Positions 3,088 through 10,946 of a stretch of 15,313 nt of DNA are shown here, piece after piece (positions within the stretch are counted from its first letter, which is position 1; every line of letters begins with the position of its first letter). Made by a program: the position numbers and the translations under genes. The notes under the pieces are model-generated. The model ran no database searches and was not told the origin of the DNA. It saw nothing but the letters and a program-made list of their open reading frames with translations. Source of the stretch: Paenibacillaceae bacterium UBA6304 (GTDB taxonomy: Bacteria > Bacillota > Bacilli > Paenibacillales > Paenibacillaceae); assembly GCA_002439285.1 (NCBI GenBank), contig DJTQ01000262.1, positions 844 to 16,156 on the forward strand. The letters are read 5' to 3'.

Positions 3088-3951
3088 ATGAACATGATTT
3101 CTGCGGAAATAACTTTATTGCTAAAAAAGTATGCTCATAAGATCAAAGCGATCGGTATGCAGCATGACAAAATAGGGGAACTCCGGCGCTTGCTGGATCA
3201 CGGAACTGCTGAACAGTCAGGTATGCGGTTTGCGGCCGAGGGAATGTGGTCGCAGCAAAAATTGCTGGCGGCAGGGCTGAAGATCCACGGCTTCTTTTTT
3301 TGTCCGGAATGCATCTATAGCCGGGAAGCGGTCGAATTAGCAGAGAAAGTGATCCATGCAGCTGGCGAAGTATATCTGATTTCCAAGAAGGTGCTGGAAA
3401 AGCTCGTTGACCGGGATAAACCCGACGGCTTCCTGTCGGTTGCGGAGTTACCTATGATTACTGCGCAGGAACTGATTCTGCCGGATAATGCCTTGGTTAT
3501 GGTACTGGACGGGCTGGAGTCCCCCGGCAATATCGGAACCATCCTGAGGAGTTGCGACGGTGCGGGGGTGAATGCCGTATTGATCTGTAACGCCAAAGTA
3601 AGGCTGACCCATCCTAAGCTGATTAAAGCCAGTATGGGGGCAGCATTCGTGGTCCCCGTAGTTTGTTTTGCAGCAGTGGAGCAATGTATGGATTGGCTCT
3701 TTTCCCGTGGTTACGAAATCTATTTGTCTGATTCCTCGGCAGAGCACTGTTATACGGCGGCTCGACCCCGCGGGAATACGGCCCTCGTTGCTGGGAGTGA
3801 ACGCTATGGGCTATCTGAAGCATGGCATGGAAGCAGCGATACAATCCGAAAAATTTCAATCCCAATGCACGGGATATGCGATTCCTTGAATGTCGGGATT
3901 GCCGCTTCGATTCTTATTTATGTATTCAGTACAATAAATGGTAAGGGATGA
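3088..3951 (+). CDS. TrmH/SpoU-family RNA 2'-O-ribose methyltransferase
   Basis: A SAM-dependent RNA 2'-O-methyltransferase of the SPOUT (SpoU/TrmH) superfamily. The N-terminal third (about residues 15-110) matches the substrate-binding domain of the RlmB/TsnR type (RRLLDHGTAEQSGMRFAAEG, FFFCPECI). The C-terminal domain has motif 1 (LDGLESPGNIGTILRSCDGAG, with the conserved N and R), motif 2 (VAGSERYGLS) and motif 3 (IPMHGICDSLNVGIAASILIY) that build the trefoil knot and SAM site. The most likely substrate is 23S rRNA, but the nucleotide cannot be read from sequence. The ATG at 3094 has a better distance (9 bases) from the AGGA than the ATG at 3088 (3 bases), so translation may begin two codons later. 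The stop lies seven bases before the following gene, so the pair is probably co-transcribed and translationally coupled. Confidence 0.9.
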   Translation: MNMISAEITLLLKKYAHKIKAIGMQHDKIGELRRLLDHGTAEQSGMRFAAEGMWSQQKLLAAGLKIHGFFFCPECIYSREAVELAEKVIHAAGEVYLISKKVLEKLVDRDKPDGFLSVAELPMITAQELILPDNALVMVLDGLESPGNIGTILRSCDGAGVNAVLICNAKVRLTHPKLIKASMGAAFVVPVVCFAAVEQCMDWLFSRGYEIYLSDSSAEHCYTAARPRGNTALVAGSERYGLSEAWHGSSDTIRKISIPMHGICDSLNVGIAASILIYVFSTINGKG

Positions 3952-5933: not shown

Positions 5934-6944
5934 TTATTGAGGGGTCCGGAAATAATCCAGTCCCATCGCTTCCCGCACTTCGGACAGCGTCTCCCGGGCA
6001 ACTACCCGGGCCCGTCTCGTTCCCTCCATAAGAATCTCGTCGATGTTGCGAGGGTTGCCCGCATAGCGGGCACGCCGTTCGCGCATCGGCTCCAGCAGCG
6101 TGTTGAGCGAGGCGACGAGCCGTTGTTTACATTCGGTGCAACCGATTGAGCCAAGTTCGCATGCTTCCTGGATTTCCGGGGCTCCCGACCCCTCGAATAC
6201 TTTGTGGTATGCGTAAATCGGACATACCTCCGGATGCCCGGGATCATGTCTTCGAACCCGGGCAGGGTCGGTGACCGCACGGCGGATTTTATGGGACAAT
6301 TGTTCCGGCGTAATGTCCAGCTCGATAGCGTTGCCGAGACTTTTGCTCATCTTCGCGTTGCCATCGGTGCCAATCAGCCGCGGAGTTTCACCGATCAGCG
6401 CTTGCGGCTCGGGGAACACGGGCCGGTACAGTTCATTGAATCGCCGTACGACTTTCCGGGCTAGCTCTAGATGAGGGAGCTGGTCTTCGCCTACAGGAAC
6501 AATCGACGCTTTGCAGAAAGTAATATCGGCCGCCTGGCTTACTGGATAGCCAAGAAAGCCGTAATACATTTCGTCCAGGCTGCTGCCTTTCGACTCGGAT
6601 TTGATCGTGGGGTTATGCCGCAGTGTATTTACCGTGACAAACATAGAAAAGAAAACGGTCAGTTCGGCGATTTCCGGAACCATCGACTGGACGAATAGCG
6701 TGGCTTGATTAGGGTCGATGCCCACCGCCAAATAATCGAGCGCTACCTCGCGCAAATGTTCCCTGATCGCCTCCGGTCTGTCAAAGTGAGTTGTTAACGC
6801 CTGGACATCGGCGAGAAGAATATAAGAGTCGTATTTGTCTTGCAGCATCACGCGGTTTTGTAAACTGCCGACGTAATGGCCGAGATGAAGTTTTCCGGTC
6901 ACGCGGTCGCCTGTAAGCATCCGCTCTTTGTTTTTCGAATTCAT
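5934..6944 (-). CDS. trpS: Tryptophanyl-tRNA synthetase (T-box regulated, TrpRS II-like)
   Basis: A class Ic aminoacyl-tRNA synthetase that charges tRNA-Trp with tryptophan in the cytoplasm, 336 residues, normal length. The HIGH-type signature is GKLHLGHY (about residues 17-24) and the KMSKS loop is complete (NAKMSKSLGN). VPVGEDQLPHLELAR is the conserved stretch near the active site. The N-terminus (RMLTGDRVTGKLHLGHYVGSL) and LADVQALT, where B. subtilis and Geobacillus TrpRS have VDQHAIT, mark it as the divergent second type rather than the standard Bacillus enzyme. The His that contacts indolmycin in the Geobacillus enzyme (His43) appears as Gln here. The start ATG has AAGGAGG seven bases upstream. 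The gene is oriented against its neighbours and is preceded by a T-box leader and a Trp-codon leader ORF. Confidence 0.96.
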   Translation of the reverse strand: MNSKNKERMLTGDRVTGKLHLGHYVGSLQNRVMLQDKYDSYILLADVQALTTHFDRPEAIREHLREVALDYLAVGIDPNQATLFVQSMVPEIAELTVFFSMFVTVNTLRHNPTIKSESKGSSLDEMYYGFLGYPVSQAADITFCKASIVPVGEDQLPHLELARKVVRRFNELYRPVFPEPQALIGETPRLIGTDGNAKMSKSLGNAIELDITPEQLSHKIRRAVTDPARVRRHDPGHPEVCPIYAYHKVFEGSGAPEIQEACELGSIGCTECKQRLVASLNTLLEPMRERRARYAGNPRNIDEILMEGTRRARVVARETLSEVREAMGLDYFRTPQ

Positions 6945-7050
6945 TTAATTTCCTCCTTAAATTGGAGACCTGGCTCTCCGAAGAGAACAGGTCATTGTAA
7001 TTGGGAACCGAACAGCGAAGCAAACTGTGCCACCACCAACCATCTTCCAC
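6781..7050 (-). CDS. Trp-codon leader ORF overlapping the trpS start
   Basis: Between the T-box terminator and trpS, AAGGAGGT (7065-7058) lies eight bases before GTG 7050; an in-frame ATG at 7056 is too close to be the likely start. The frame reads MEDGWWWHSLLRC, with three consecutive TGG codons at 7038-7030. It runs 89 residues, across the trpS ribosome binding site and start in another frame, and stops at 6781, inside trpS. The B. subtilis anti-TRAP (rtpA) operon has the same order: T-box, then a short leader peptide with three Trp codons, whose translation controls the next gene. Ribosomes moving through would cover the trpS ribosome binding site; ribosomes stalled at the Trp codons would leave it free. 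Only the first part may matter; the C-terminal portion inside trpS is probably a shadow of that gene. Confidence 0.55.
   Translation of the reverse strand: MEDGWWWHSLLRCSVPNYNDLFSSESQVSNLRRKLNEFEKQRADAYRRPRDRKTSSRPLRRQFTKPRDAARQIRLLYSSRRCPGVNNSL
6952..6993 (-). promoter_or_regulatory. Alternative hairpins at the trpS ribosome binding site
   Basis: Three competing helices are visible on the minus strand: a stable UUCG hairpin closed by GACCTG/CAGGTC (6993-6967); GGAGA/TCTCC (6979-6975 with 6968-6964); and TCTCC/GGAGG (6968-6964 with 6956-6952), which would hide the trpS Shine-Dalgarno. The UUCG hairpin takes part of the TCTCC arm and so would free the ribosome binding site. They lie inside the Trp leader ORF, downstream of its Trp codons. 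Confidence 0.5.
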
Positions 7051-7071
7051 GGCCATCACCTCCTTAAAAAA

Positions 7072-7102
7072 TCAAAAAAACCCCGTCCGCATAAGGACGA
7101 AG
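7072..7102 (-). terminator. T-box terminator hairpin
   Basis: ACTTCGTCC pairs with GGACGGGGT across TTATGC (two G-U pairs), followed by a run of T on the minus strand. It competes with the antiterminator formed by the T-box sequence. Confidence 0.88.
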
Positions 7103-7380
7103 TTATCGTGGTACCACCTTAATTGACATTCCGCCTCCGTATAATGAAATGGTGGAATGACTCTCTCAACCAGTACGGAGAATGGAATTGAACTAATGGA
7201 AAGTCCCGATATTCTCGATACCTATCCCTTGATAACGGCGGGAACCCCGGCTTTTCCTAGTGCATCCTTCACGGACGGTTCGGCAAAGCGACTCCAAAGG
7301 CCATTCGATCAAACGAGGAACACCGGTTCACAGCGGCCACCGGCTCTCTGGAATCCCCCAGCTTTGTCTACTTACCCTTT
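7072..7380 (-). promoter_or_regulatory. T-box leader responding to uncharged tRNA-Trp
   Basis: All T-box hallmarks can be read on the minus strand. Stem I is closed by CAAAGC/GCTTTG (7366-7361 with 7289-7284) and has the AGAGAG bulge (7349-7344) and a CCGGT-ACCGG distal hairpin. The specifier loop reads GAATGGCCTTTGGAG, with Trp codon UGG at 7303-7301. The T-box AATTAAGGTGGTACCACG is at 7124-7107, and a terminator follows. Uncharged tRNA-Trp binding should favour the antiterminator and allow trpS transcription. The T-box bulge reads UGGU, which would make a U-G wobble with the G73 discriminator usual for bacterial tRNA-Trp. Confidence 0.95.
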
Positions 7381-10056: not shown

Positions 10057-10246
10057 AATCCGAGGGACTGACAAAAACCTACAAAACTTTTTTCCTGTAT
10101 GAAGGAATTTATGCTTGGGTATCGAATGAATAAACACATGGAAATGATCAGGTATGTACGCCAATGTCATTTTTGTTTATAATGAGATGCAGCATACTTG
10201 ATATACTCTCGGCATATATTTCTTTTGTATATATTTCCTTGAATAA

Positions 10247-10255
10247 TGCTATACT
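10247..10255 (+). promoter_or_regulatory. Extended -10 promoter of mazEF
   Basis: TG-c-TATACT (10247-10255) is an extended -10 element; the nearest -35-like box is TTGTAT (10225-10230) with a long 19-base spacer. It lies 56 bases before the mazE start. A perfect TATAAT at 10178-10183 has no matching -35. Confidence 0.6.
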
Positions 10256-10310
10256 GAAACACAAGGTCAAGGGATCAGGGTCGACAAGGTTTTGGGGGTG
10301 GAAGTTTAAG

Positions 10311-10592
10311 ATGGCGAATATGCATAACACCAAAAGAATCATGATTAGTTTACCGGATCATCTTTTGCAGGAAGTGGATGGAATCGTAGCGATGGAGAAC
10401 TCCAATCGCAGCGAGCTGATTAGGCAGGCCATGAAATTGTATTTGAATGAGCGGAAGAAGAGATTCATCCGTGAATCGATGCAGCGCGGCTATATGGAAA
10501 TGGCTAAAATTAATTTATCCATGGCCTCTGAAGCATTCCATGCGGAGGAAGATGCAGACATCACTCTGGACCGCTTAGTAAGCGGGGTGTAA
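10311..10592 (+). CDS. mazE: MazE/EndoAI antitoxin (ribbon-helix-helix)
   Basis: The antitoxin of a type II toxin-antitoxin pair, which binds and inhibits the MazF RNase and usually represses its own operon. It has 93 residues, the same length as B. subtilis EndoAI (YdcD). The N-terminal ribbon-helix-helix fold (KRIMISLPDHLLQEVDGIVAMENSNRSELIRQAMKLYL) binds DNA as a dimer, and the C-terminal part (RRGYMEMAKINL-like RGYMEMAKINLSMASEAFHAEEDADITLDRLVSGV) contacts the toxin. The frame is open further upstream to 10164, but that is rejected because ATG 10311 follows GGGGTGG and gives the family length. The toxin gene starts three bases after its stop. Confidence 0.95.
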   Translation: MANMHNTKRIMISLPDHLLQEVDGIVAMENSNRSELIRQAMKLYLNERKKRFIRESMQRGYMEMAKINLSMASEAFHAEEDADITLDRLVSGV

Positions 10593-10595
10593 CTA

Positions 10596-10946
10596 TTGAT
10601 CGTAAAGCGCGGCGACGTTTTTTTTGCAGACCTCTCCCCTGTAGTCGGTTCTGAGCAGGGTGGAGTTAGACCGGTGCTTATTATCCAGAACGATATCGGC
10701 AACCGATTCAGCCCGACGGCGATCGTTGCTGCCATCACGGCCCAAATCCAGAAGGCGAAGCTGCCGACTCATGTGGAGATCGAGGCAGCTACGCACGGCT
10801 TTGACCGGGATTCCGTTATTTTACTGGAACAAATCCGAACGATCGACAAACAGAGACTAACCGACAAAATTACGCATTTAGACGAAGAGACGATGAAGAA
10901 AGTGAATGACGCTTTGTTAATCAGTCTTGGTTTAATTGATTTTTAA
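10596..10946 (+). CDS. mazF: MazF/EndoA endoribonuclease toxin
   Basis: A sequence-specific mRNA interferase of 116 residues, as in B. subtilis EndoA (NdoA), whose known cleavage site is UACAU. The family start [31 protein letters not shown] is present, with the catalytic Arg in GGVRPV and the Thr-containing segment [19 protein letters not shown]. The start codon is TTG, three bases after the mazE stop, with GGGGTG six bases upstream overlapping mazE, so toxin synthesis is coupled to antitoxin translation. The rsb genes that follow in B. subtilis are not present here. Confidence 0.97.

Follow-up and report, generated by a model that had tools for sequence, protein, structure and literature searches.

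A candidate two-layer sensor of uncharged tRNA-Trp, a T-box followed by an overlapping leader, upstream of an auxiliary tryptophanyl-tRNA synthetase gene

Locus layout and identity of the synthetase

The locus analysed here raises the question of why a tryptophanyl-tRNA synthetase (TrpRS) gene that is preceded by a T-box should also carry, between the T-box and the gene, a short leader with consecutive Trp codons whose reading frame continues over the start of the gene. The window (i.e., the whole 15,313-nt stretch of DNA that was analysed) contains all of these elements on one strand (Table 1), and the tRNA-Trp T-box, the leader Shine-Dalgarno sequence (SD), the GTG start, the TGG run, and the trpS SD and start were each located where a first-pass annotation had placed them. 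In the window, the T-box specifier and the gene it precedes agree in their amino acid, Trp. When the interval was shuffled with its dinucleotides preserved, an SD, a start, and WWW within the first 12 codons were reproduced in 0 of 5000 cases, which argues that the leader did not arise by chance.

Table 1. Features of the T-box, leader, and trpS locus in the window.
Feature	Position	Strand	Evidence and remarks
T-box riboswitch, specifier TGG (Trp)	7394-7090	(-)	RF00230, 96.6 bits (gathering 93)
Specifier context GAATGG	7306-7301	(-)	Sequence; specifier TGG at 7303-7301
T-box motif	7120-7107	(-)	Sequence
Intrinsic terminator of the T-box	about 7099-7071	(-)	Stem CGTCC/GGACG, then T run
Leader SD, AAGGAGGTGATG	7065-7054	(-)	Sequence; similar in relatives
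Leader ORF, starting VEDGWWWHSLLR, GTG at 7050	7050-6781	(-)	89 codons
TGG TGG TGG, leader codons 5-7	7038-7030	(-)	Two or three Trp in relatives
trpS SD, AAGGAGG	6958-6952	(-)	Within the leader reading frame
Leader/trpS overlap	6944-6781	(-)	164 nt; relative to the leader, trpS is in +1 phase (xAT Gxx as read in the leader frame)
Auxiliary TrpRS, 336 aa	6944-5934, ATG at 6944	(-)	TIGR00233 above cut-off; PF00579

The gene that the first-pass annotation called trpS does encode a TrpRS, but represents a second copy with 36% identity to the other copy in the same genome. Judged by its sequence, it is an auxiliary, TrpRS II-like synthetase and not the housekeeping trpS. Among solved structures, its closest match in sequence is TrpRS II, 1yi8, which we take to be the enzyme from Deinococcus radiodurans, and a TGDR motif is common to both; the nearest record with a name in a protein search was from Paenibacillus vini. 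A TrpRS of some kind was matched in all 40 genomes of the window's genus, while an auxiliary-type copy was matched at E ≤ 1e-90 in only six of the 40, one of which (G006) is broken; G005, G030, and G031, also in this genus, presented auxiliary-type trpS pieces only. Across the family, auxiliary trpS was found at E ≤ 1e-75 in 101 of 394 genomes (G006 counted).

Two substitutions distinguish the auxiliary copies. Arg replaces the Gln of the primary enzyme's SGIQPSG motif in all 109 leader loci located before trpS, and the pocket His of the primary copy is replaced by Gln in 107 of the 109 loci according to a pattern search, with the remaining two also presenting Gln at this place in their sequences. 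The equivalence of this His to H43 of the Bacillus stearothermophilus enzyme was set by motif, not by structure alignment; an H43N substitution in B. stearothermophilus TrpRS is reported to result in indolmycin resistance (PMC4899734). Replacement of the pocket His, together with the resistance associated with H43N, suggests that the auxiliary enzyme is likely an inhibitor-tolerant spare TrpRS. A link to NO synthase (NOS) is not claimed; NOS is common in the family (matches in 256 of 315 genomes), and no NOS match was found in the window's genome, which is 86% complete.

Two further ORF regions of the window were observed outside this locus. At positions 10164-10946, an ORF for a MazF-like endoribonuclease (match below NCBIfam cut-offs) comes after a small ORF that resembles an antitoxin gene only in its position, and positions 3088-3951 contain an RNA methyltransferase of the RlmB/NshR-TsnR kind, which scores below the cut-offs of the NCBIfam families listed.

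Conservation and distribution of the leader and the T-box

Conservation among relatives had been set in advance as the point on which the first-pass proposal could fail, and conservation was observed; all 101 family genomes with auxiliary trpS at E ≤ 1e-75 carry a leader that has an SD, a start, and two or more Trp codons, and the remainder of the leader varies between loci. Of these 101 leaders, 89 fit a strict DNA pattern and 12 are relaxed forms (TTG start and MDGGWW-like, GWRW, altered SD, or similar). The strict pattern was found in 91 of 394 family genomes, with 0 matches for the reversed control; 89 of these 91 genomes have auxiliary trpS, the exceptions being G264, in which trpS was not found at the threshold, and G298. 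At the G298 locus (L249:774-1241, minus strand), a MEDGWWW leader and a terminator precede an aminoacyl-tRNA editing-domain gene (PF04073) and not trpS; no T-box at gathering score was found there.

Leaders were also present at 14 of 80 loci found by protein, and these were seen before any pattern existed; this count and the 89 strict plus 12 relaxed leaders among 101 are the unconditional figures. The 14 loci represent Paenibacillus, Cohnella, and two clostridial assemblies (L051 and L053), while most of the other 66 protein-found loci belong to different phyla or classes. Among 398 genomes sampled from the class (family members included), there were 17 pattern matches, with four genomes outside the family. 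In a clostridial order, the pattern was found in three of 58 genomes; two of these are seed genomes and one (L210, in G802) presents a leader followed, by eye, by only the C-terminal end of TrpS, an apparent deletion remnant that was found after the count and lies outside it. Pattern-found loci identical over 210 nt were counted once, and one of the 98 distinct leaders (L201, without trpS) was excluded from the spacer and codon-variation counts.

Among the 109 loci, for which per-codon counts over pattern-found loci are conditional on a strict pattern that fixes much of leader codons 1-6, Trp is present at codon 5 in 109, codon 6 in 104, and codon 7 in 51; position 2 is E in 65, D in 43, and V in one, position 3 is D in 98, G in nine, and E in two, and position 4 is G in 108. 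The Trp codons are consecutive in 104 loci, and five loci present WYW or WRW. The three TGG codons at positions 5-7 emphasized in the first-pass annotation are found in the window and in 46 of the 109 loci, but 63 loci have two; the conserved core is two Trp codons, not three. Synonymous third-base changes among the leader codons show that it is the peptide that has been retained. The E/D-D-G residues ahead of the Trp codons, some of which the search pattern itself fixes, are kept in Bacilli and in two clostridial loci, and codon starvation alone provides no explanation for them.

A T-box core was identified upstream of the leader in 97 of 97 pattern loci (two scans combined, with 82 and 94 loci), as well as in 11 of the 12 relaxed loci; the other relaxed locus, L244, presented a core with one changed base. 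The RF00230 gathering score, which the window's T-box exceeds, was also reached by seven of 10 further leader loci (L250, L129, L142, L239, L126, L145, and L192), with L165, L243, and L244 falling below it. The specifier context reads GAATGG in 55 of 82 T-box-core loci and ATGG or GTGG in the other 27. Because the available upstream stretches were short, one genus was suspected of having lost the T-box; this proved to be wrong, as its T-box is located further upstream.

The reading frame over the trpS start and a proposed mechanism

In 105 of the 109 loci, trpS is in phase 1 of the leader. The distance from leader start to trpS ATG takes 24 different values (58 to 139 nt), 21 of which are 1 mod 3; the other three, 63, 66, and 69 nt, represent the four exceptional loci. 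The leader frame is open up to the trpS ATG in 106 of 109 loci. Over the spacers of 97 loci, which run from the Trp codons to the trpS ATG, three stops were counted in 1795 codons of the leader frame, as compared to 135 in 1791 and 88 in 1698 in the other two frames. A leader in phase 2 (i.e., the third frame) would stop at ATGA, at a median of 4 nt; the loci thus use the phase in which the leader continues beyond the trpS start.

Continuation of the frame was also evident inside trpS. A leader-frame stop within the first 20 trpS codons was found in none of 105 loci, as compared to 54.3 expected from synonymous resampling using each gene's own codons; within 30 codons, 11 were observed and 66.8 expected. 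Both controls were close to expectation, with such a stop in 33 of 58 relatives from other taxa that lack the leader pattern (33.0 expected) and in seven of 22 primary trpS genes (7.9 expected); control loci without a clear start (eight of 66 leader-less and three of 25 primary) were left out. With near relatives removed, there were still zero stops, as compared to 28.0 (62 loci), 22.0 (50 loci), and 17.2 (37 loci) expected. Based on these comparisons, codon choice in trpS holds the leader frame open for 60 nt or more beyond the start, and the continuation noted in the first-pass annotation is, by this codon evidence, under selection. In our interpretation, selection has acted against stops close to the start, a place at which terminating ribosomes could reinitiate. 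The four exceptional loci, which were left out of the 105-locus tests (accessibility, stop test, and relatives-removed test), include L143 and L144, from two genomes of another family, with a 12-codon leader that stops 27 nt upstream of the start and resembles some rtpA leaders; L194, whose leader stops at the SD and whose genome yielded no auxiliary TrpS match at E ≤ 1e-75; and L150, with a leader fused in frame with trpS.

Taken together, the elements and their conservation, the phase that prevails, the open leader frame, and the selection acting on the codons of trpS lead us to infer, in line with the first-pass proposal, a mechanism of occlusion and relief, and we consider it quite probable that the T-box and the overlapping leader together form a two-layer sensor of uncharged tRNA-Trp that controls the auxiliary TrpRS. 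In the first layer, uncharged tRNA-Trp would stabilise the antiterminator and allow RNA polymerase to pass. In the second layer, ribosomes would load at the strong SD past the terminator and translate MEDGWW(W). When Trp-tRNA is available, these ribosomes would continue, in a frame other than that of trpS, across its SD and start and for at least 60 nt into the gene, covering the trpS start while running and terminating too far from it to reinitiate there. When Trp-tRNA is scarce, they would stall at the Trp codons, upstream of the trpS ATG, and a second ribosome could initiate trpS; given the size of a ribosome footprint, a trpS ATG at least 58 nt from the leader start would provide room for both the stalled and the initiating ribosome. 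The auxiliary enzyme may serve when the housekeeping TrpRS fails or is inhibited.

Several alternatives were considered. Leader translation or stalling might switch a hairpin that hides the trpS SD, and a hairpin is indeed predicted just upstream of the trpS SD in the window; however, the fold z-score is 0.11, the spacers differ in length and sequence, and the mean predicted accessibility of the trpS SD is 0.57 whether the stretch under a stalled ribosome is included or left out, with a gain above 0.2 on stalling in only four of 105 loci. An SD-sequestering structure is therefore not supported and seems very improbable, and the unchanged accessibility favours occlusion over refolding. A shift of ribosomes into the +1 frame when the Trp codons are starved would result in a leader-TrpRS fusion, consistent with trpS lying in the leader's +1 frame in 105 of 109 loci, but in 82 of 97 loci a stop closes the trpS-side frame somewhere from the Trp codons to the ATG, and this candidate was rejected with almost no weight left to it. 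The leader could also be a functionless remnant of a cassette that rtpA carries too, and its homology to the rtpA leaders fits this; as the spacer and the trpS codons are both under selection and the leader is kept in 101 of 101 family genomes with auxiliary trpS, this seems scarcely credible.

Two other explanations concern the stalled leader ribosome and the nascent leader peptide. A stalled leader ribosome might mainly shield trpS mRNA from decay instead of freeing its start, which fits the strong SD after the terminator and the conserved leader start, but gives no reason for a frame that is held in one phase and remains open across the trpS start and for a further 60 nt; we consider it quite improbable. 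Alternatively, M-[ED]-D-G-W-W may be read as a nascent peptide inside the ribosome, which would arrest in response to Trp, a Trp analogue, or a TrpRS inhibitor, with the same downstream occlusion. Retention of E/D, D, and G at positions 2-4 of the 109 loci despite synonymous codon variation points in this direction, as does the fit of the motif to 89 of 101 protein-found trpS genomes and to the 14 leader loci of 80, including two clostridial ones; however, four residues before the Trp codons would be very short for arrest in the tunnel, and several rtpA leaders depart from the motif (MESDWRR and MEEGWP), making arrest unlikely. The two-layer sensor of uncharged tRNA-Trp has counterpoints of its own, including the four of 109 departing loci (L143, L144, L194, and L150), the G298 leader that precedes a tRNA-editing-domain gene, the changed base in the L244 T-box core, and the E/D-D-G residues.

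Relation to rtpA and to other known systems

The first-pass annotation had drawn a parallel with B. subtilis rtpA, which encodes anti-TRAP, and this parallel goes beyond analogy to homology. Of the 25 rtpA loci compared in a single genus, presumably Bacillus, 23 carry a homologous leader; a 26th anti-TRAP match, below the cut-off, was left out of this set. Examples include MYDGWWWHSR* (L283), MDDGWWCITDQ*, and MESDWRR..., the last of which reads over the rtpA start. Twelve of the 23 rtpA leaders read over the start by 7 to 155 nt, seven stop 14 to 24 nt upstream, three (L287, L291, and L294) are fused in frame, and one stops at the start. The cassette is not general to the anti-TRAP family, a possibility that was rejected, as both leader and T-box core were absent from 12 of 12 anti-TRAP-family loci outside that genus; one of these 12 loci is in a genome of the window's family (G112). 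TRAP was present in 39 of 39 sampled genomes of the window's genus, and anti-TRAP was found in 0 of six relatives searched.

The T-boxes of rtpA and auxiliary trpS share up to 85% identity (mean 0.625), as compared to at most 60% (mean 0.512) for auxiliary and primary trpS, and the two cassettes have the leader start and the SD-start spacer in common. In a T-box tree rooted on primary trpS (seven of 97 auxiliary loci, one of 25 primary loci, and the 12 relaxed loci left out), the 23 rtpA rows group with nine auxiliary rows at 99/99, inside the auxiliary rows; the primary trpS group is supported at 65/81 with all rows and at 100/99 with eight long-branched or odd rows removed. In this reduced tree, the auxiliary rows are kept as one group neither in the ML tree nor in any (0%) of 200 bootstraps, but the AU test does not reject a single auxiliary trpS group (p = 0.198). 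Common ancestry of the T-box-leader cassette at rtpA and auxiliary trpS is thus well supported by these comparisons, while descent of the rtpA cassette from the trpS cassette is suggested only. We tentatively put forward, at somewhat less than even probability, the fuller reading that the locus is a dual-coded two-layer switch for an inhibitor-tolerant spare TrpRS, with trpS codons evolved for overrun without reinitiation, and also the source of the tandem sensor of Bacillus anti-TRAP.

These observations suggest that tandem transcription-translation sensing, known from one small regulatory protein, represents a widespread synthetase-gene cassette, and they hint at a way in which tRNA-Trp control may have been extended to a TRAP antagonist. 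The locus also illustrates clearly how an overlapping regulatory frame constrains the choice of codons. A further prediction is that starvation or inhibition of the main TrpRS would induce a spare one in many Paenibacillus relatives.

Compared with known systems, the locus shares a T-box before trpS with the housekeeping trpS of Firmicutes; a T-box core was found in 24 of 25 primary trpS loci (with a gathering-level Rfam match in three of six tried), but the primary T-boxes form a separate group in the tree, and the strict leader pattern was found in none of the 25 primary loci. The D. radiodurans enzyme, TrpRS II (1yi8), is the closest solved relative by sequence and shares the TGDR motif; its reported partnership with NOS (PMC9437257) is not implied for the window enzyme. 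An auxiliary TrpRS with a Trp-codon leader is also found in Streptomyces (trpRS1/trpS2), whereas here the T-box would handle transcription and the leader overlaps the gene. The Streptomyces trpRS1 gene is said to be controlled by a leader-dependent attenuator. A candidate attenuator has been reported upstream of S. avermitilis trpS2 (PMC1262725), and Streptomyces TrpRS1 has been listed as indolmycin resistant (PMC9437257).

The closest parallel is B. subtilis rtpA/rtpLP, in which a Trp T-box is likewise followed by a strong SD and a short MDDGWW- or MYDGWWW-like leader, with the gene start located just after or under the leader; DGWWWHS is common to the window leader and the L283 rtpA leader. 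In the B. subtilis form, the leader stops just upstream of the downstream SD, whereas the window leader ends 164 nt inside trpS, a sub-feature that also varies among rtpA loci. The ends of rtpA leaders vary, whereas 105 of 109 auxiliary trpS leaders run across the start and continue for at least 60 nt, and unlike rtpA, the downstream gene in the window encodes a TrpRS. Complete translation of the B. subtilis leader is reported to prevent RtpA translation (PMC2311275), and rtpA transcription and translation are both reported to respond to uncharged tRNA-Trp (PMC4027176, PMC11255114); by homology and geometry, we propose that the same regulation may operate here. The first-pass annotation knew of no description of this arrangement for trpS, and none was found in searches of an open-licence library; against the known tandem sensor of rtpA and the attenuator of Streptomyces trpS2, what appears to be new is a T-box combined with an overlapping leader on a trpS gene.
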